From an uncultured Bacilli bacterium (GTDB lineage: Bacteria > Bacillota_I > Bacilli_A > RF39 > UBA660): a stretch of DNA of 44,209 nucleotides. Position numbers and translations under genes: made by a program. The stretch is from positions 1 through 44,209 of the forward strand of contig CANRAL010000007.1 in NCBI GenBank assembly GCA_947628585.1. The letters are read 5' to 3'. The notes under the pieces are model-generated. The model saw only the letters and a list, made by a program, of their open reading frames with translations, did not search any database and was not told the DNA's origin. Shown here piece by piece: positions 2,154 through 44,209 of this stretch; positions within the stretch are counted from its first letter, which is position 1; every line of letters starts with the position of its first letter.

Positions 2154-4040
2154 TTAACTAACAACTAAAGTATACGGGTTTGAAATAGTTCCTATTCCAC
2201 CACCTAATTTTACATCATTGCTAATATAAAAGGACGGGCGGACCACACGCGGGAACGCGCCGACATAGGCGTTGGAGAGATTACCGGGTGTACCCACATA
2301 GAACGCAGTGACAAGAGAATCGCAGTTTTGGGTTATTAACCATTCCCATAAGCCCATATATAACCAGTTACTATCTGTTGCCGAACGATATTCATTTTTT
2401 ATTAATCCTTCTGGGAAACTTCCTGCTGGGTTATTATCTTTATCAGTTTTTCCTGGATTAGTGTAAGTAAATGTTCCTGTGTATGGTTGTTTGTTCCAAT
2501 TTTTGGGTGCTGCTCCATATAAATAATCACTTACATATAATAAGCCTATATATTCTGAATCGGTTTTTTTATCATCTTGAGCATCTGTTCCTAATTCATT
2601 ATTATATACTGTTTTGACATTATTAGCTATTACTATATTATCCCATGTTGCATTCTTATTTCCATATATCCATTCATGTTTTGTTATTAATTCTCGATAT
2701 GTTTCATCTATTGTACTTAGGTATTTTTTATTTAAATGAATTTTATTTAATAATGATGTTTCCCAATTGGCTAGTGTTGCTTCACTTCCGTTTTCTTGCC
2801 AATAATATATATCTACATGATCTAATAAACCTTTATATCTATGCGTAAATGCATCTCTTTCTTCATTATTTCCTGTTGATGATTGATAAGGATTTCCTGT
2901 AAAACGTGAGCCATTGGTTTCAGGGTCAGCCGTTTCAAAATCTGATGTGCTTGCTGTTCCAGCTCCTAATAATTCCTTATTAGCATAATCCGCTTTTACT
3001 ACTTTTATTCCATCATTTCCAAATGTTCCGATTATTCTAAATAAGTTATCTTTATTATTACAGTCAGTTCCTAAACATATATAATTATTTACTTTTTCGA
3101 ATGAGCCTGTATATCTATAACTTTTATCATTGGCTTCTAATGTATAGTTTTCTTCTCCTTCATAATCTGCTTCTCCATCATGATAGATTATATTACTTGC
3201 TCCATATTCACTTTCATCATGTAACTTCTTTATACATCCAGCAAGCTCTTCCCCTTCACTACATACATCCATTAAATCATTGGCTATTTTCTTTTCTTGG
3301 ATTCTTATTCTTCCTTTAAAACTTTTCCCTGTATTTAATTCTTGATTTGTTTCTAAGTTCTTAAATGTTATTGTTATTTCCCATTTATCTGTTTTTGTAT
3401 TTTCTTGTTCTAAATCATGATTTTCTTTATTTACTTTTATTACATAATCTTCTACTATAGGATATATTCCTTCTCTTAACTCCGTTATATCATAACTATC
3501 ATTTGCATTGTTTAATGTTGCTTTATTTAAGCCTTCTATATTTACTTCATAACCATCTGGTCCTTTTACTGTTAAAAATAATTCAGGTATTGCCTCATAC
3601 CCTAAAGTTAATCCATTATAATCGACATTATTTCCTAATGTTTTATCATATTCTTTTAAAAATACTATTGGGTCTTCTTTATCATTATCTTTATAGGAAG
3701 AATATTCTAAATCATTTTCTAGTATTTCTAAATATATACTATATTTATAATCTTCTGTTTCATTAGTTGTATTATTAGCTATTAAGGTAGCACTTACATT
3801 TGTTGTTCCTTCTTGATTACTATCACCTAATTTAAATTCATCTGGTTTTACTTCAAGAGTTATATTATCTCCACCAATAAAAGATAAACTATCTACTGTT
3901 CCAGTTGTCGTATTTATATTAGAAATTGTTGTATTACCATTTACACTTTGAAAATATGCATAGGTTGCTCCTATTACAACTATTAATATTACAAATATGC
4001 CAACAATTAATAAAATTAAAGACTTTTTATTACCCTTCAT
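2154..4040 (-). CDS. Surface-anchored protein with candidate hypervariable C-terminal module
   Basis: This 628-residue protein begins with MKGNKKSL, a hydrophobic anchor or signal segment ending GATYAYFQS, then an extracellular-looking region rich in Asn, Thr, Asp and Glu. A middle module contains CSEGEELAGCIKKL, SYRYTGSFEKVNNYICLG and NLFRIIGTFG. The C-terminal module contains IGLLYVSDYLYGA, NWLYMGLWEWLIT, VVRPSFYI and GGIGTISNPYTL. The middle and C-terminal modules recur in the genes at 13671 and 42311, and the very end also in 12332. The family is not firmly named; the VRP...G.GT..NPY ending resembles large gut-bacterial surface families and may be a C-type-lectin-like fold (inference). 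The start at 4040 is preferred over the in-frame ATG at 4049 because the AAAGGA at about 4051-4056 is almost touching 4049. Residues about 571-604 are encoded by an anomalous GC-rich block. The gene has its own (TA)n promoter-like element and a terminator, so it is probably monocistronic. Confidence 0.75.
   Translation of the reverse strand: MKGNKKSLILLIVGIFVILIVVIGATYAYFQSVNGNTTISNINTTTGTVDSLSFIGGDNITLEVKPDEFKLGDSNQEGTTNVSATLIANNTTNETEDYKYSIYLEILENDLEYSSYKDNDKEDPIVFLKEYDKTLGNNVDYNGLTLGYEAIPELFLTVKGPDGYEVNIEGLNKATLNNANDSYDITELREGIYPIVEDYVIKVNKENHDLEQENTKTDKWEITITFKNLETNQELNTGKSFKGRIRIQEKKIANDLMDVCSEGEELAGCIKKLHDESEYGASNIIYHDGEADYEGEENYTLEANDKSYRYTGSFEKVNNYICLGTDCNNKDNLFRIIGTFGNDGIKVVKADYANKELLGAGTASTSDFETADPETNGSRFTGNPYQSSTGNNEERDAFTHRYKGLLDHVDIYYWQENGSEATLANWETSLLNKIHLNKKYLSTIDETYRELITKHEWIYGNKNATWDNIVIANNVKTVYNNELGTDAQDDKKTDSEYIGLLYVSDYLYGAAPKNWNKQPYTGTFTYTNPGKTDKDNNPAGSFPEGLIKNEYRSATDSNWLYMGLWEWLITQNCDSLVTAFYVGTPGNLSNAYVGAFPRVVRPSFYISNDVKLGGGIGTISNPYTLVVS
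2231..2330 (-). other. GC-rich, adenine-depleted block: candidate variable region
   Basis: In these 100 bases 58 are G or C, while the rest of the gene is about as AT-rich as the genome. On the coding strand only 14 are adenine. It encodes QNCDSLVTAFYVGTPGNLSN and continues to VVRPS. Codons such as TCC AAC GCC TAT GTC GGC GCG are what random replacement of adenines in AAC/AAT codons would give. Even the invariant VRP is written GTC CGC CCG, whereas the paralogues use AGG CCA or AGA CCA, so the segment looks copied in as a block. This fits a diversity-generating retroelement variable region. Import from another genome or cassette switching are alternatives. Confidence 0.45.
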
Positions 4041-4077
4041 ATATATCATATCCTTTCGTCAAATACTCTATCTAAAG

Positions 4078-13670: not shown

Positions 13671-14993
13671 TTAACTTATTCGATAAGGGTTATCTTTAGT
13701 ACCAAAACCATTCAATAATTTAATGGAAGAAGTTAAATAAAACACTGGCCTAACGCAATAATAACCTTCCCAACTATTAACCCAAATAGTATCAATATTA
13801 CTTCTATAATATGCCATATAAGCTTTATTATCAGTATCACTATTAGAAGTTATAAACCAATCATTTAATCCCAAAACTAGCCAATTTTTAGAATCGGCAT
13901 CTCGATAATCTTCATAAGGCGATGTATCTTTTTCAGAATTTCTCCCTTTTAAATTCCAATAAGAATTTTGGGCGGCATAATAAAAATCACTTAAATACAT
14001 AAGACCTATATTAGCAGAAGTAGTACTATCATTTATCATTTCTGATGTATATGCAATTTTAGCATTACTATTAAGACAATTTTCTTGGGAACAACCATTA
14101 ATATGCCATTTTGTTTCTATTATTTTTTCTACTAATTTAGGATTTTTATTTGCCAAGTAGTTATAAAATTTTCCATTTAAATTAATTTTATTTAAATCAC
14201 TATCTTCCCATTTATTAGTATTTAATGTATTCCATTTGTAAATTATTTTTTCTTGAGCATTTGTTTCATTATAGTACCAATCAGCATATAAAAAATTGCC
14301 AAAATATGCACCTACACCTTCCCCACCAGTTTCATCGGCTGTAGTATAATCATATTTAATTAATTTAAGTTCATATTTGCCATAATCTGTACTTTTTTCA
14401 TCTTCATTTTTAAATATGCCGATTATTCGATATAAATTATCAATAGATTCACATTCTCCACTTACAGTACTATTATCTAAACATACATAATTATTTACGA
14501 TATCATTACTTCCTGCATATCTATAGGAATCATCGTTAGCTACTAAATTATAATTTGGAAATTCTTTTTTTGTGGCATCAGCTAAATTATGATAGATTAT
14601 TGCTCCATCTATTTCATAGTTTTCTTTTATACAACTTGCAAATTCTTTTCCTTTGCATCTATTTCCAATATTATCTATATCAAAATAAATAGTACATTTT
14701 TCACTACCATTTGTATTTAATACTATTTGACCATTTTCAAAATTTACTTCTCCTCCATTTTCACATGTACTTAATTCTTTATTAAATATGTATCCTTCTT
14801 TAGGCCAAGCGTCTATTTCACCATCAATATAATCTTCATTTTTATCTTGTAATTTTATACTCATTAATTTACTATCTTTATTTTCTAAGATTAATTTATT
14901 TTTCTTATTTAAATATAAATTAATAATAAAATAAGAAGCTATTATTCCCAAAATGCAAAAAAATATTAATATTTTTTTATTTACTTTTAACAT
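13671..14993 (-). CDS. Surface-anchored protein of the VRP/GTxxNPY family
   Basis: This 440-residue protein has an N-terminal hydrophobic segment (about residues 8-28) and a short linker ending in a Cys-containing domain with CENGGEVNFENGQIVLNTNG and CTIYFDID. The shared module follows: CKGKEFASCIKENYEIDGAI, SYRYAGSNDIVNNYVCL and NLYRIIGIFKN. The C-terminal module has IGLMYLSDFYYAA, NWLVLGLNDWFITSNSD, CVRPVFYL and GFGTKDNPYRI. GGAG lies 7 bases upstream of the ATG. Codons in the most variable stretch are AT-rich and ordinary, unlike the block in the 2154 gene. The same 31-base (TA)n element lies upstream and a clean terminator downstream, so it is monocistronic. Bases 14485-14657 are nearly identical to part of the 42311 gene. 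Confidence 0.75.
   Translation of the reverse strand: MLKVNKKILIFFCILGIIASYFIINLYLNKKNKLILENKDSKLMSIKLQDKNEDYIDGEIDAWPKEGYIFNKELSTCENGGEVNFENGQIVLNTNGSEKCTIYFDIDNIGNRCKGKEFASCIKENYEIDGAIIYHNLADATKKEFPNYNLVANDDSYRYAGSNDIVNNYVCLDNSTVSGECESIDNLYRIIGIFKNEDEKSTDYGKYELKLIKYDYTTADETGGEGVGAYFGNFLYADWYYNETNAQEKIIYKWNTLNTNKWEDSDLNKINLNGKFYNYLANKNPKLVEKIIETKWHINGCSQENCLNSNAKIAYTSEMINDSTTSANIGLMYLSDFYYAAQNSYWNLKGRNSEKDTSPYEDYRDADSKNWLVLGLNDWFITSNSDTDNKAYMAYYRSNIDTIWVNSWEGYYCVRPVFYLTSSIKLLNGFGTKDNPYRIS
14485..14657 (-). repeat. 173-base segment shared with the 42311 gene, copy 1
   Basis: This segment encodes the CKGKEFASCIKENYEIDGAI to VNNYVC module. Aligned by eye with 43164-43336 it has about 6 mismatches over 173 bases, including near-identical third codon positions. 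The flanking sequences are far less similar. Confidence 0.85.
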
Positions 14994-15135: not shown

Positions 15136-16260
15136 TTATATTGATAAATATTTTTTAAAATCTTTAAATTCACTAGAATTATCTAAATCAGTTTTAGCTA
15201 AATCTTGTAATAAGTCTTTTTGTTTTCGATCTAGTTTACTTGGAATAATAACATCAATAATGGCATACATATTACCTCGCATTATAGAGTTGGGTGTCTT
15301 AATTCCTTTACCTTTTAATTTTAGTTTAGTTCCTGACTGCGTTCCCGGTTTTATTTCTAAAATTACATTTCCATTCAATGTAGGGATTTCTTTTTTACAA
15401 CCTAATGTAGCTTCAACTATTGTGGTAGGTACCTTTAAATAAATGTCTTGATTATCTCGAGTAAATAATGGATGTTCTTTAATTTTAAATTCAATGTATA
15501 TATCTCCATTCATTCCTCCGTTTCGAGAGGCATTTCCTTTTCCTTGTAAACGTAATTGGTAACCATCGTCTACACCCTCAGGAATAGTAACGGTAAATGT
15601 TTTAGTTTTCTTAATAATACCTTTACCCCGACATTCATCACAAAGTAATTCATAAGAACGGCCATTACCCCGACATTCAGGACAAATTTTTTGGGTTTGC
15701 ATATAGCCAAAAATGGTTTGTTGTTGCTCTAATACCCGACCAGCGCCACCACATGTTCGACATGTCTTTTCGTTAAATCCTCCTTTGCCATCACATTTGG
15801 GACAAGTAACATTTAAATCTAATTTTATATCTTTTTCACAACCAAAAACAGCTTCCTCAAAAGTTAAGTTAAGAACTATTCTTTCATCTTCTCCTCGACT
15901 CCGAGAAGTCGAAGAACTATGGCTTCGACCAAAACCGCCAAAACCAAAACTGCCTCCAAATAAATCATTTAAAATATCGTCTAAATTAATATCTCCCATA
16001 TCAAAGCCCCCAAAACCATCAGCCGAAGAACCACCATTTTGGAAAGCCGCATGACCAAATTGATCATATTGTCGTCTTTTATTAGGATCGGATAAAACCG
16101 CATACGCCTCACCTATTTCTTTAAATTTTTCCGCAGCTCCTGGTTCTTTATTAACATCAGGATGGTATTGTTTAGCTAATTTTCGGAAAGCTCTTTTAAT
16201 TTCTTCATCAGTTGCATTCTTACTAATTCCTAAAACTTCATAATAATCTTTTTTATTCAT
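15136..16260 (-). CDS. dnaJ: Chaperone DnaJ (Hsp40)
   Basis: This 374-residue protein has the full DnaJ layout: a J domain at 1-70 with the HPD motif ([12 protein letters not shown]), a Gly/Phe region with [10 protein letters not shown], and a zinc domain with four CxxCxGxG repeats ([32 protein letters not shown]). The two C-terminal substrate-binding domains follow. It stimulates the DnaK ATPase and delivers substrates. It is the last gene of the hrcA-grpE-dnaK operon, but separated from dnaK by pepF, and ends at a strong terminator. Confidence 0.96.
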
Positions 16261-28598: not shown

Positions 28599-31500
28599 CT
28601 AAAATAAACTCATTTGGGCACTTTCAGGTAAATCTTTAAAAATACCCAACTCTTTTAATTTATCAACCGTTGTTTGATTAACCTTACCCCGAGTGGCAAA
28701 GTCTTCAATACAATAAAAAGGTTTTTTGTTTCTTTCTTCAATAATTTTATTAGCAACAGCTTCACCTAAACCATCAACAGCCATGAATGGTAAGATTAAG
28801 GTTTTGTTTTCTTCATCGATATAAAAAGTCTTAGCCAAGGATTTTTCAATATCAATATTTTTAAAACTATAACCTCGAGCCAACATTTCTAAAGCAACTG
28901 CTAAGGTATCGGCAACGGCATTTTCTTTAGCGGAAGCCCCATATCCTTTTTCTTTTATTTCAATAAGACGTCTTTTTATACTATCATATCCTCCTAGCAT
29001 CGCATTTATATCAAAATCGCTACGGCGAATACTGAAGAACGCAGAATAATAATATAAAGGATAATATACTTTAAACCAAGCAACCCGAAAAGCCATCATA
29101 ACATAAGCACAGGCATGAGCTTTGGGAAACATGTATTCGATTTTCCTGCAGCATTCGATAAACCATTCAGGAACATTATATTCCCGCATAATAGCCACAT
29201 GTTCTAACCATGCTTCCGGTTCCTTTTTAGGTTTTCCTTTCCGCACAAATTCACTAATTTTAAATGCTTTAGAGGAATCAATTCCGTAATTAATTAGGCT
29301 AGTCATAATATCATCTCGACAACCAACTACTTCATCAAAAGAAGCAATTTTATTAACAATTATATCGCGCACATTGCCAGCCCAAACGTTAGTACCATGG
29401 GATAGACCAGCAATTTTTACTAAATCAGCAAAATGTTTAGGTTTTATTTCTAAAAGCATATTAATAGTAAAGCCTGTTCCAAATTCGGGAATACCCAAGG
29501 TGCCAGTTTTACATAAAATATCATCGCTTGTTACCCCTAAAGCTTCAGGAGAATTAAATAAACTTAAAACTTTTTGATCATCAAAAGGGATATCCAAAAT
29601 ATTTATTTTCGTTGTATCACCTAAATACCGTAACATAGTAGGATCATCGTGTCCAAGAATATCGAGTTTTAAAACATTATCATGAATCGCGTGGAAATCA
29701 AAATGCGTTGTATACCAAGTACTATCTGGTTCATCTGCCGGATATTGATAAGGCGTAAAATCAAAGACATCCATATATTGAGGAATAACTATAATTCCTC
29801 CCGGATGTTGGCCGGTTGTTCTTTTAACTCCGGTACAGCCTTTAGCAATTCTTTCTACTTCAATATTATTAACAATAATATTTTTATCTTCAAAATAACC
29901 TCTTACATAACCAAAAGCCGTTTTTTCCGCCACAGTAGAAATTGTTCCAGCACGATAAGCATGGTCTTCACCAAATAAAACTTTAACATGATTATGCGCA
30001 TCAGCTTGATTATCTCCCGAAAAGTTTAAATCGATATCAGGTACTTTTTCGGCTTTAAAACCTAAGAAGGTCGCAAAAGGCATATCTTGACCTTCTTTTT
30101 TCATTTTTGTTCCACACTCGCAGGTATAATCTGGCATATCATAACCACTATTATATAAATCCGCTAATTTTTCACCATTTATTTCAAATAATGACTTTTG
30201 GCACTTAGGACAAACATAATGAGGTGGTAGGCCATTAACTTCCGTTATCCCCATCATAGTTGCAACTAAAGAAGAACCAACGCTTCCTCGAGAACCAACA
30301 AAGTATCCATCTTCATTACTTTTCTTAACTAATTTTTCGGCAATTAAATAAATGACATCGTATCCTCCACCTATTATCCCATTAAGTTCCGCTTCAAGTC
30401 TTTCACTTATTATAGAAGGTAATTCTTCTCCATATATTTCATGAGCTCGCTTATAAACCATATCACGACATATTTCCGCGGAATTTTCTAAAACTGGAGT
30501 ATATAATTTATCCCGAATTATTTGTAAATCTTCAACCATATCCGCAATTTTATTAGGATTTGTTATAACAATTTTTTCTCTTTCTTCCAAAGGCAAAAAA
30601 TCAAATGCTTCTAACATTTCAGTAGTTGTTAAAAAATACATATTAGGTATTTCCATTCCCTCTTTGTTTAAAGGATGAATCTTACCATTGGTTTTTTGAT
30701 GAATAATTACTTTTCGATAAATTAAATCTTCTTTATATAAGTTATGAACATCTCCCACAGCACAAACTAATTTATCTTTTTTTTGAGCCAAAGTAATCAG
30801 TCTTTTAAGATAATTTTGATATTCTATTACACTGTGAAAAATACCATCATTTCCAATTAAATGACTACAACTGGAAGCCGGATAAACTTCAATATAATCA
30901 TAAAAATCCATTTCATCTAATAATTCATCATCAGTTAAATTTAAACCTTTTTCAAATATTTCTCCATTTATGCAACCACTTCCGATAAGTAATCCCTCTT
31001 TAAAAGAAATTAAATCTTCTCGAGGTATTTTAGGCTCTTTTCCTTTAAATAAATATTTAGTATTCGCTAAAGAAATAATTTTAAATAAATTTTTAAGTCC
31101 AGTACTATTTTTAGCTAAAATTGTTAAATGAAAAGGACGGGCAAATTTAATTGCATTTTCTTTATCAATTAATTTTTCTAAATCTAAAGTGGTATGATAA
31201 TTTTGATGTTTTAATTCTAATAACATTTTATATAAACATTTCGCGGTTCCTTCACAGTCATAATCTGCTCGATGATGCTTTTCTTCATCCCATTCTACTT
31301 CTAAATTTTTAACTAAAGTAGATAATTTGTGATTTCGCCATTCGGGATGCAAATTTCTAGCCAAAGTCATTGTATCAACAACCGTGAAATTAAATTCTCC
31401 TAAATTATATTTATTCATAGCATTAGTTACAAATCCAATATCAAAGGCCGCATTATGAGCTACCAAAGGTAAATTCCCACAGAATTGTAAAAATCTTTCA

Positions 31501-39508: not shown

Positions 39509-39516
39509 TAACTAAA

Positions 39517-39592
39517 TGGTGTCCCGCTCGAGATTCGAACTCGAGACCCTTTGATTAAAAGTCAAATGCTCTACCTACTGAGCTAGCGGAAC
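39517..39592 (-). tRNA. tRNA-Lys(UUU)
   Basis: The minus strand folds as a tRNA with acceptor GTTCCGC/GCGGGAC, anticodon loop TTGACTTTTAATCAA with anticodon TTT, T arm TCTCGAGTTCGAATCTCGAG and an encoded CCA end. It is the last gene of the cluster. Confidence 0.97.
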
Positions 39593-39604
39593 AAGATAAT
39601 ATTT

Positions 39605-39680
39605 TGGCTGCCTCGGGTGGACTCGAACCACCGGAATGTCAGAGTCAAAGTCTGATGCCTTACCACTTGGCTACGAGGCA
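39605..39680 (-). tRNA. tRNA-Gln(UUG)
   Basis: The acceptor is TGCCTCG/CGAGGCA, the anticodon stem-loop CAGACTTTGACTCTG gives anticodon TTG, the T loop is GGTTCGAGTCC, and CCA is encoded. The U1 to A72 pair is typical of bacterial tRNA-Gln. Confidence 0.97.
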
Positions 39681-39687
39681 AACTAGA

Positions 39688-39771
39688 TGGTGGAGGGACA
39701 TGGATTTGAACCATGGAACCCGAAGGAACAGATTTACAGTCTGCCGCGTTTGGCCACTTCGCTATCCCTCC
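39688..39771 (-). tRNA. tRNA-Tyr(GUA)
   Basis: The acceptor is GGAGGGA/TCCCTCC and the anticodon stem-loop CAGACTGTAAATCTG gives anticodon GTA. A long variable arm (TTCCTTCGGGTTCC region) marks a class II tRNA, and CCA is encoded. Its length of 84 bases fits tRNA-Tyr. Confidence 0.97.
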
Positions 39772-39780
39772 ATAAAAAAA

Positions 39781-39856
39781 TGGTGCCGACTGAGGGAGTC
39801 GAACCCCCAACCTACTGATTACAAGTCAGTTGCGCTGCCAGTTACGCTAAGTCGGC
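39781..39856 (-). tRNA. tRNA-Thr(UGU)
   Basis: The acceptor is GCCGACT/AGTCGGC, the anticodon stem-loop CTGACTTGTAATCAG gives anticodon TGT, and CCA is encoded. Confidence 0.97.
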
Positions 39857-39866
39857 AAAAATAAAA

Positions 39867-39943
39867 TGGTGGGCGCTATAGGACTCGAACCTATGACCCC
39901 CTGCTTGTAAGGCAGGTGCTCTAACCAACTGAGCTAAGCGCCC
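39867..39943 (-). tRNA. tRNA-Val(UAC)
   Basis: The acceptor is GGGCGCT/AGCGCCC, the anticodon stem-loop CCTGCCTTACAAGCAGG gives anticodon TAC, and CCA is encoded. It is the first gene of the five-tRNA transcript. Confidence 0.97.
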
Positions 39944-39975
39944 AAAGCATGCAAAACATCTCGATGACATTTTCA

Positions 39976-40004
39976 ATTATACTATAACAGGGATAATATT
40001 GCAA
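39976..40004 (-). promoter_or_regulatory. Promoter of the tRNA cluster
   Basis: On the minus strand TTGCAA (39999-40004), a 17-base spacer and TATAAT (39976-39981) form a strong sigma-A promoter about 33 bases upstream of tRNA-Val. Confidence 0.85.
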
Positions 40005-42310: not shown

Positions 42311-44209
42311 TTATAATAAAGTATATGGATTAGAAATAGTACCGTTACCTGATACAAGTTTAACATCTGAATTAAGATAAAATGTTGGTCTTACTCCATC
42401 AACAATCGCATTTATATACACATTATAGTCGGGATATGCTGGGGCCGATATCATTAATGCATTTATATAAATATCTGATACTCTTGTTATTGTCCATTCG
42501 GTTATTCCCATATATAGCCAATTATCTAAATAGTGATATGAATAATAATCATCTCCACCAAACCCTGATAAATGCCAATATTTAGAATCCATTGTATAGT
42601 AATAATCACTTACATACATTAAGCCTATTTCATCTTGATAAGTTAAATCTTTTTCGGTACATACTCTTGGAGTAACACCATCATAACATCCTGATTCTCC
42701 GCTTTTTATTTTATTTTCGCCAAGTTCTATATTATATACTTTTAAAGCATTCGTTTCATAGACAAAATCTCTACTAGTATTACCACTTACTGTCCATATA
42801 TGATTCTCTATCATAATACGGTATTTTTCAGGTATCTTATTATAAAATATTATATTTAAATTTTCTGTATTTAGAAAACTACTAGACCATGTATTATAAA
42901 TAATATCTTTTCCAGCCCAATAATAACCTCCTATCTTAGAAAGGGGTAATTTTCCTCTATAATATAATGAAACAATATCTGGATTATTTTGATCAAACGT
43001 ATTAAAATATGCTTCAGAAACTCCACCTTCTTCAGCGGTTAGATAATCTGCCTTAATTAACTTAAGTTTATATTGATTATTTTTATTATCATCAAATATG
43101 CCAATTATCCGATATAAATTATCATAGTTTTCAGTATCACTACATGTATCTGCTCCAAAACAGACATAATTATTTACGATATCATTACTTCCTGCATATC
43201 GGTATGAATCATCGTTAGCTACTAAATTATAATTTGGAAATTCTTTTTTTGTGGCATCTTCTAAATTATGATAGATTATTGCTCCATCTATTTCATAATT
43301 TTCTTTTATACAACTTGCAAATTCTTTTCCTTTGCACAATAATCCTATTGTCTTTTTTAAAGTTGTCTCAGTTTTTACACTATCTGTTGATTTATCTCCT
43401 TCACTATCTATTGCTCTTACTTTTATTGTATATTCTTGTTCTTCTTCTAATCCTTCAAAGGTATGTGTTTTTTCAGTACCTTTTTCTATTCTTCCAGGAT
43501 TTATTGTTGCTCCACTTATTTCGTATTCATATTCTTTTATCCCTCTATCCCCTTCTTCACTGTCTATTTGAATACTTATTTCATTATAACTTTTACTTAT
43601 TACTTCTATACTTTTTATTTCAGGTAATTTCTTAGCTGTTGCTATTATTTCGGTTTCATATACATTACTTTTAAAATCATTATTATCTACTGCATATCCA
43701 TATATTATGTAATTGGTATCACTTGTTAAATTTGTAAATATATGGGTGGGACTACTTTCTTTTTCCCATATTTTTACATCTTCTAAACTTGCTGGAACTA
43801 CTTCTCCTACTTTCCCTTTTTCTTCTTTAGCAAAATAATATTCTTTTATTCCAGCTGTTCCTTTTTCATCAAATTTTAATGTTGTTGTTATACTATCTAC
43901 TGTTTTTTCATCTATACTTACATTATTTATATGGGCTAGTTTATATGTATCCATTGTATCAGTTGTTATTACTACTTCTCCTGTTACTTCCTTTCCTGTA
44001 TTTCTATTTTGATCATTATCTAAATTTATTAATGTTACTTTTATTTCCCATTCTTCTTCTTTTTCTCCATTATCATTTTTTGTTACTTCTATCTCTTCTC
44101 CTACTTTTATGGCAAAACTTCCAGATTTTCCAGTTATATCAAATCCACTTACATCATTAGGATTTTTTTCATCCTTTTCATGATATACTAATCCATCTAT
44201 TTCTTTTAT
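42311..44209 (-). CDS. Surface protein with fibronectin-III-like repeats, VRP/GTxxNPY family, 5' end outside window
   Basis: The frame is open to the right edge, so the N-terminus is missing; the first visible residues are IKEIDGLVYHEKDEKNPNDV. ATG 43954 is internal. The visible part starts with a domain containing EEEWEIKVTLINLDNDQNRN, matching WEITITFKNLETNQELNTGK in the 2154 gene. Two fibronectin type III-like repeats follow, ending IIYGYAVDNNDF and YTIKVRAIDSEGD. The shared Cys module (CKGKEFASCIKENYEIDGAI to VNNYVCFG) and NLYRIIGIFDD come next. The C-terminal module has IGLMYVSDYYYTM, NWLYMGITEWTIT, GVRPTFYL and GNGTISNPYTLL. Codons for its variable stretch include a short GC-rich patch (ATATCGGCCCCAGCATATCC), far smaller than in the 2154 gene. 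Adhesion is inference. Confidence 0.8.
   Translation of the reverse strand: MKEIDGLVYHEKDEKNPNDVSGFDITGKSGSFAIKVGEEIEVTKNDNGEKEEEWEIKVTLINLDNDQNRNTGKEVTGEVVITTDTMDTYKLAHINNVSIDEKTVDSITTTLKFDEKGTAGIKEYYFAKEEKGKVGEVVPASLEDVKIWEKESSPTHIFTNLTSDTNYIIYGYAVDNNDFKSNVYETEIIATAKKLPEIKSIEVISKSYNEISIQIDSEEGDRGIKEYEYEISGATINPGRIEKGTEKTHTFEGLEEEQEYTIKVRAIDSEGDKSTDSVKTETTLKKTIGLLCKGKEFASCIKENYEIDGAIIYHNLEDATKKEFPNYNLVANDDSYRYAGSNDIVNNYVCFGADTCSDTENYDNLYRIIGIFDDNKNNQYKLKLIKADYLTAEEGGVSEAYFNTFDQNNPDIVSLYYRGKLPLSKIGGYYWAGKDIIYNTWSSSFLNTENLNIIFYNKIPEKYRIMIENHIWTVSGNTSRDFVYETNALKVYNIELGENKIKSGESGCYDGVTPRVCTEKDLTYQDEIGLMYVSDYYYTMDSKYWHLSGFGGDDYYSYHYLDNWLYMGITEWTITRVSDIYINALMISAPAYPDYNVYINAIVDGVRPTFYLNSDVKLVSGNGTISNPYTLL
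43164..43336 (-). repeat. 173-base segment shared with the 13671 gene, copy 2
   Basis: This segment is nearly identical to 14485-14657 (about 6 mismatches in 173 by eye) and encodes the same Cys-containing module. The two copies are about 28.7 kb apart in the same orientation and could recombine. Confidence 0.85.

Follow-up and report, generated by a model that had tools for sequence, protein, structure and literature searches.

A GC-rich block near the 3' end of a protein-coding gene in an uncultured gut Bacilli bacterium is, judged from its sequence, a genuine variable repeat (VR) of a diversity-generating retroelement (DGR), and is almost certainly served in trans by a single chromosomal cassette. 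The initial annotation had interpreted this block as a variable region, and that interpretation is supported by a template repeat (TR), a reverse transcriptase (RT) and an Avd protein in the same genome, as well as by mismatches that fall mainly on template adenines. The window, that is the whole stretch of 44,209 nucleotides analysed here, is contig C7 of genome G000, a short-read metagenome-assembled genome (MAG) of 1.24 Mb (59 contigs, 95% complete). Its relevant features are as follows.

2154..4049, minus strand: target gene, 631 aa, with a hydrophobic N-terminus (signal/anchor) and a C-terminal domain that contains the VR
2157..3278, minus strand: C-terminal domain (residues 258-631), predicted C-type-lectin/FGE-like fold (AlphaFold2 model and VIA-align)
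2235..2318, minus strand: VR, 84 bp, target codons 578-605, SLVTAFYVGTPGNLSNAYVGAFPRVVRP, ungapped match to the TR at G000:C16:24950-24867 (minus)
2235..2246, minus strand: likely initiation of mutagenic homing (IMH) site, GTGGTCCGCCCG, encoding VVRP and identical to the GC-rich 3' end of the TR
13671..14993, minus strand: distant paralogue of the target C-terminal domain (E 7e-93), without a TR-matching VR
42311..44209, minus strand: second distant paralogue, a fibronectin-III region plus a related C-terminal module, without a TR-matching VR

The block stands out by composition. A recount of positions 2231-2330 gave the values originally reported, 58 of 100 bases G or C and 14 coding-strand adenines, while mean GC across the window is 25.7% and its richest 100-bp stretch is that at 2232 (59/100). 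Within the 84-bp VR core (2235-2318), 18 of 28 codons end in G or C, consistent with the two thirds claimed at the outset, compared with 12.8% in the remainder of the target gene; adenine makes up 9 of 84 bases, compared with 44%. The block does stop at the conserved VRP, as described, but the part homologous to the template (2235-2318) is slightly smaller than the 2226-2335 first proposed. Among the codons that had been listed as products of mutated AAY codons, GGC is instead unchanging template sequence, and the GC-rich VRP codons of the window VR are likewise fixed template sequence. TR and VR diverge immediately beyond their shared GC-rich end GTGGTCCGCCCG, as in an IMH/IMH* pair, and this element likely acts as the IMH, a role assigned by analogy with the BPP-1 system. 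Further GC-rich patches occur in the window at 39515-39994, 15651-15806 and 30200-30299, and AbiEii- and AbiEi-like genes (348-929 and 1170-1802) adjoin the target gene. VR and TR DNA searches gave no match in the two distant paralogues of the window.

A DNA search of G000 with the block and its flanks returned ten paralogous loci and one shorter match, C16:24867-24950, which lies between a target gene and an RT. On the minus strand of C16, the order is target gene, stop codon, TR (24950-24867), 149 bases, a 124-aa ORF, a 127-aa ORF and a 357-aa RT; the TR is non-coding, 3' of the target stop codon, 5' of the 124-aa ORF and near the RT. The genome thus contains the template that the initial annotation had suggested seeking, which matches the block mainly at non-adenine positions, and beside it a DGR-type RT and an Avd protein. 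That this machinery is missing from the window itself also proved correct, as RVT_1 matches in G000 are confined to C16 and no TR-spacer RNA is found in the window.

The RT matched phrog_1423 (RT; E 7e-66) in PHROGs and, as its best PDB match by E-value, the 8ub7 entry set (titled reverse transcriptase; E 8e-16), which we take to be the BPP-1 DGR RT; its motifs IGN.xSQ and Y.DD are kept in 17 relatives. The 127-aa protein matched phrog_3206, 'Avd protein of DGR' (E 1.5e-9), and NCBIfam DivGenRetAVD at an E-value (1.8e-6) under the curated cut-off, while a search of PDB sequences gave no relevant match. Pfam MutS_I was matched by 18 of 21 homologues of the 124-aa protein (best E 9.5e-8) and not by the G000 protein itself, the model of which (pLDDT 93.9) has MutS as its top fold match (E 4e-4); this protein corresponds to MSL, a MutS-domain-I-like accessory already recorded for DGRs (PF01624; PMC10053308). 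A separate RT fragment at C16:21743-22174 was rejected as the relevant RT, being part of a group II intron (group_II_RT_mat, E 8e-37), and an AbiEii-like gene lies near the C16 cassette (L004:6914-8278). Taken together, the DGR-type RT, the non-coding TR near it, the VR at the 3' end of the target, the adenine-focused mismatches, the accessory proteins (Avd and MSL) and the shared GC-rich end are the features by which a DGR is recognized.

Compared with the present TR, the window VR differs at 15 of 22 template adenines and at 6 of 62 other sites (p 3.4e-7), a test that is free of the grouping and circularity of the pooled counts given next. Adenine sites account for 15 of its 21 mismatches to the present TR (71%) and for 15 of 18 (83%) to an inferred older template. 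Scoring seven VRs against whichever of two template versions their marks pointed to gave differences at 104 of 158 adenine sites and at 17 of 430 others. These numbers are flattering, since the grouping itself relied on those marks and the inferred template was in part reconstructed from VRs that it then served to score. The same holds for the two groups separately: the window VR, L006, L009 and L010 against the inferred template (61/92 adenine, 5/244 non-adenine; p 2e-37), and L008, L011 and L013 against the present TR (43/66 and 12/186; p 6e-21). Mismatches are therefore concentrated at template adenines, in line with the expectation first set for them, and the gene body behaves differently: over 640 bp 5' of the VR, the mismatch rate between the same paralogues and the window gene is 11.4% for A sites and 15.9% for non-A sites. 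Three further VRs fit less well by their non-adenine mismatches (L012, 12/62; L014, 12/62; L015, 24/62), making L015 in particular doubtful as a recent VR, and L007 carries one inserted codon, for which the alignment is not proper. As all template AAY codons become NNY, a stop codon cannot arise, and 9.8e12 protein variants are possible from one TR. Two distant paralogues, L017 (G000:C10:508-765) and L018 (C29:7930-8175), carry NNY-rich blocks at the VR position with no match to the TR; these are perhaps VRs of a lost or different template.

We considered whether the variability could have arisen without a retroelement, through ordinary gene conversion or recombination among paralogues or through positive selection. 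The paralogues are indeed mosaic 5' of the VR, for example in long stretches common to L007 and L008, but such processes do not account for change at 66% of adenines and about 2-6% of other sites relative to one intergenic sequence, nor for the absence of the adenine pattern outside the VR; the comparison with the TR already refutes this explanation, which we regard as very improbable. An assembly chimera or imported GC-rich DNA, to which the abrupt jump in GC content might point, appears less probable still. The reading frame is unbroken, ten other genes and the congener G006 have blocks at this position, and the base composition of the VR follows from a TR that is itself 51% GC (22/84 A) and from the replacement of A by other bases. 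Chimeric assembly had been named at the outset as an outcome that would overturn the variable-region interpretation, and the arrangement shared by ten paralogues and the congener excludes it in practice.

The congener G006 contains the same cassette, with its own TR that differs by three to four bases from that of G000. Three of its VRs have 0/61 non-adenine mismatches to this TR, and its VRs with few non-adenine mismatches, when pooled, differ at 82 of 138 adenines and 8 of 366 other sites. From the TR through spacer, MSL and Avd to the RT, the two cassettes share 93-97% identity, whereas the VRs adjacent to them differ at 15 of 22 adenine sites and 2 of 62 others. RT homologues were found in 44 of 99 genomes searched, the weakest matches not necessarily being DGR RTs, and a mechanical scan placed AAY-rich blocks beside most of 30 RT loci. 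Relatives that carry a name are MAGs of uncultured Bacilli; Candidatus Onthousia is the sole such genus name among those listed. No close phage source was found, as RTs from viral contigs among those listed are at most 38% identical.

A structured RNA follows the template.

L004:11720-11872: covarying RNA 3' of the template, absent from Rfam at gathering level

The 150 bases that follow the template are conserved and fold into hairpins; in one 9-bp spacer hairpin, 7 of 9 pairs have changed on both sides while every cell stays paired. By most measures the spacer structure scores above shuffled and slid controls, its short middle hairpin having been placed by eye using the same alignment. An Rfam search of the cassette loci returned only an L21 leader. 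A covariance model of the spacer found one copy in G000, and copies in 25 of 59 genomes searched (G000 included), all in the genus. In public genomes it matched 72 of 80 RT loci, nine of which carry two to four copies. In further relatives, two to four template spacer RNAs lie near one RT at L122:1065-2185, and also at L127, L139, L108, L115, L116, L118 and L126. At L144:4104-6166 (G099:C4:44840-46751), eight tandem template-like blocks lie beside one RT, with a structured spacer RNA after four of them; 25 of the 35 variable columns among these blocks contain A, by a biased measure, which is suggestive of self-mutation of the templates.

About 30 loci in G000 are related to the target C-terminal domain, 11 of them closely (counted by eye from split matches). 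Including the window gene, a block occupies the VR position in 11 paralogous genes, nearly all of the other ten lying on other contigs; at least eight genes appear to be fed by the retroelement, and probably all eleven. Pfam and NCBIfam searches of the target protein gave nothing convincing. One AlphaFold2 model of the C-terminal domain reached a mean pLDDT of 82.5 and a pTM of 0.88 (the other four were at ~60), and its top structural match by VIA-align was the N-terminal part of a Thomasclavelia ramosa IgA peptidase (Z 14.7). Matches of lower Z include PvdO, CarF, C-type lectins and further FGE-like proteins, as well as TvpA (2y3c) at Z 6.1, which is below 8; the list of matches is coherent, but only one of the five models is confident. 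This modelling is consistent with a C-type-lectin-like domain that may present a ligand-binding face, and the hydrophobic N-terminus suggests that the protein is anchored at the cell surface.

At the sequence level there is support for the components and how they are arranged, for adenine-specific mismatches in eight or more genes, and for a machinery conserved across the genus, all consistent with the following proposed mechanism. The C16 template repeat would be transcribed together with its structured 3' RNA, and the RT with Avd, and probably MSL, would copy the template into cDNA with misincorporation opposite template adenines. Retrohoming in trans would then begin at GTGGTCCGCCCG, the GC-rich end common to both, and put the cDNA in place of the matching 3' block of a target gene. 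The predicted outcome is a set of exposed surface proteins whose C-type-lectin-like domain presents a randomised face for ligand binding.

Which template last wrote the window VR is less clear. Relative to the present TR, the window VR, L006, L009 and L010 have in common a varying third base of an Ala codon and TAT-GTC in place of TAC-GTT, while L008, L011 and L013 agree with the present TR (GCC and TACGTT). Because the third base varies, the older template probably had A there (GCA). The window VR has six non-adenine mismatches to the present TR and three to this older version; given these six mismatches and the TAT-GTC common to other VRs, we infer that it was last rewritten from a template version that is absent from the assembly. 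It is possible, though we lean against it, that an earlier template, or a sister one, wrote the window VR, which would now be a fossil that is no longer rewritten, and that the present TR mainly serves L008, L011 and L013. The fit of the four VRs to a GCA/TATGTC template, the present-TR marks of the other three and the single template in G000, with no second one found by DNA or RNA-model search, would all agree with this, and there is a precedent in Treponema denticola SP32, in which a remote target matches a lost TR type (PMC4891356). However, template copies may have been collapsed or lost in a short-read MAG, and several templates occur in some relatives, such that a second live template is possible. 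More tentatively still, templates may have multiplied and changed over time across the family, one RT using a shifting template set, some perhaps self-mutated at adenines, and targets recording the version that last wrote them; this would fit both the tandem arrays of two to eight blocks in relatives and the two VR signatures in G000.

If trans-acting rewriting by the C16 cassette operates as proposed, this bacterium could keep altering parts of its own surface via a retroelement. Its reduced genome retains the ~30 target-domain loci and 11 close copies described above, and the same machinery is widespread in the genus, which would make this small, host-associated genome an example of programmed surface variation. 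With these target genes and template versions that can be told apart, in-trans rewriting could be tested in metagenomes. The covarying RNA that follows the template offers a handle for structure-based discovery of DGR templates, and cassettes with several templates pose the question of how a single RT picks among them. Our literature search found no paper treating both DGRs and RF39, and on multi-template DGRs only the T. denticola paper, which is no proof of novelty.

Like the BPP-1 DGR (mtd/avd/TR/brt), the G000 system combines an RT, Avd, a TR with a structured 3' spacer RNA, a GC-rich shared 3' end, adenine-specific change and a C-type-lectin target. The BPP-1 spacer recruits bRT-Avd (PMC12875486), and by analogy the spacer RNA may do so here. 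BPP-1 is a Bordetella phage, whereas the G000 system is cellular, places its template before MSL-avd-RT, includes the MSL accessory and has many remote targets. BPP-1 also has a stem-loop after its VR, an inverted repeat that boosts retrohoming and is not strictly needed (PMC12875486), while no inverted repeat of at least 8 bp, and hence no BPP-1-type stem-loop, was found at 2150-2350 in the window; such a stem-loop is an efficiency element and not a DGR-defining feature. The TvpA DGR of T. denticola (PMC4891356) is likewise cellular, with several remote FGE/C-type-lectin targets and VRs traceable to differing TR versions, but belongs to an unrelated lineage, uses HRDC rather than Avd and MSL as its accessory, and has 2-7 targets compared with up to 11 in G000. 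The DGRs of Thiohalocapsa PB-PSB1 also serve many targets, with evidence of action in trans (PMC10907252); there, a 7.95-Mb genome has nine loci and 15 targets, with targets in conflict systems, whereas the 1.24-Mb genome G000 combines a single cassette with up to 11 closely related surface paralogues. Finally, DGRs with the MSL accessory (PF01624; PMC10053308) similarly encode a small MutS-domain-I-like cassette protein, and in G000 MSL and Avd co-occur.
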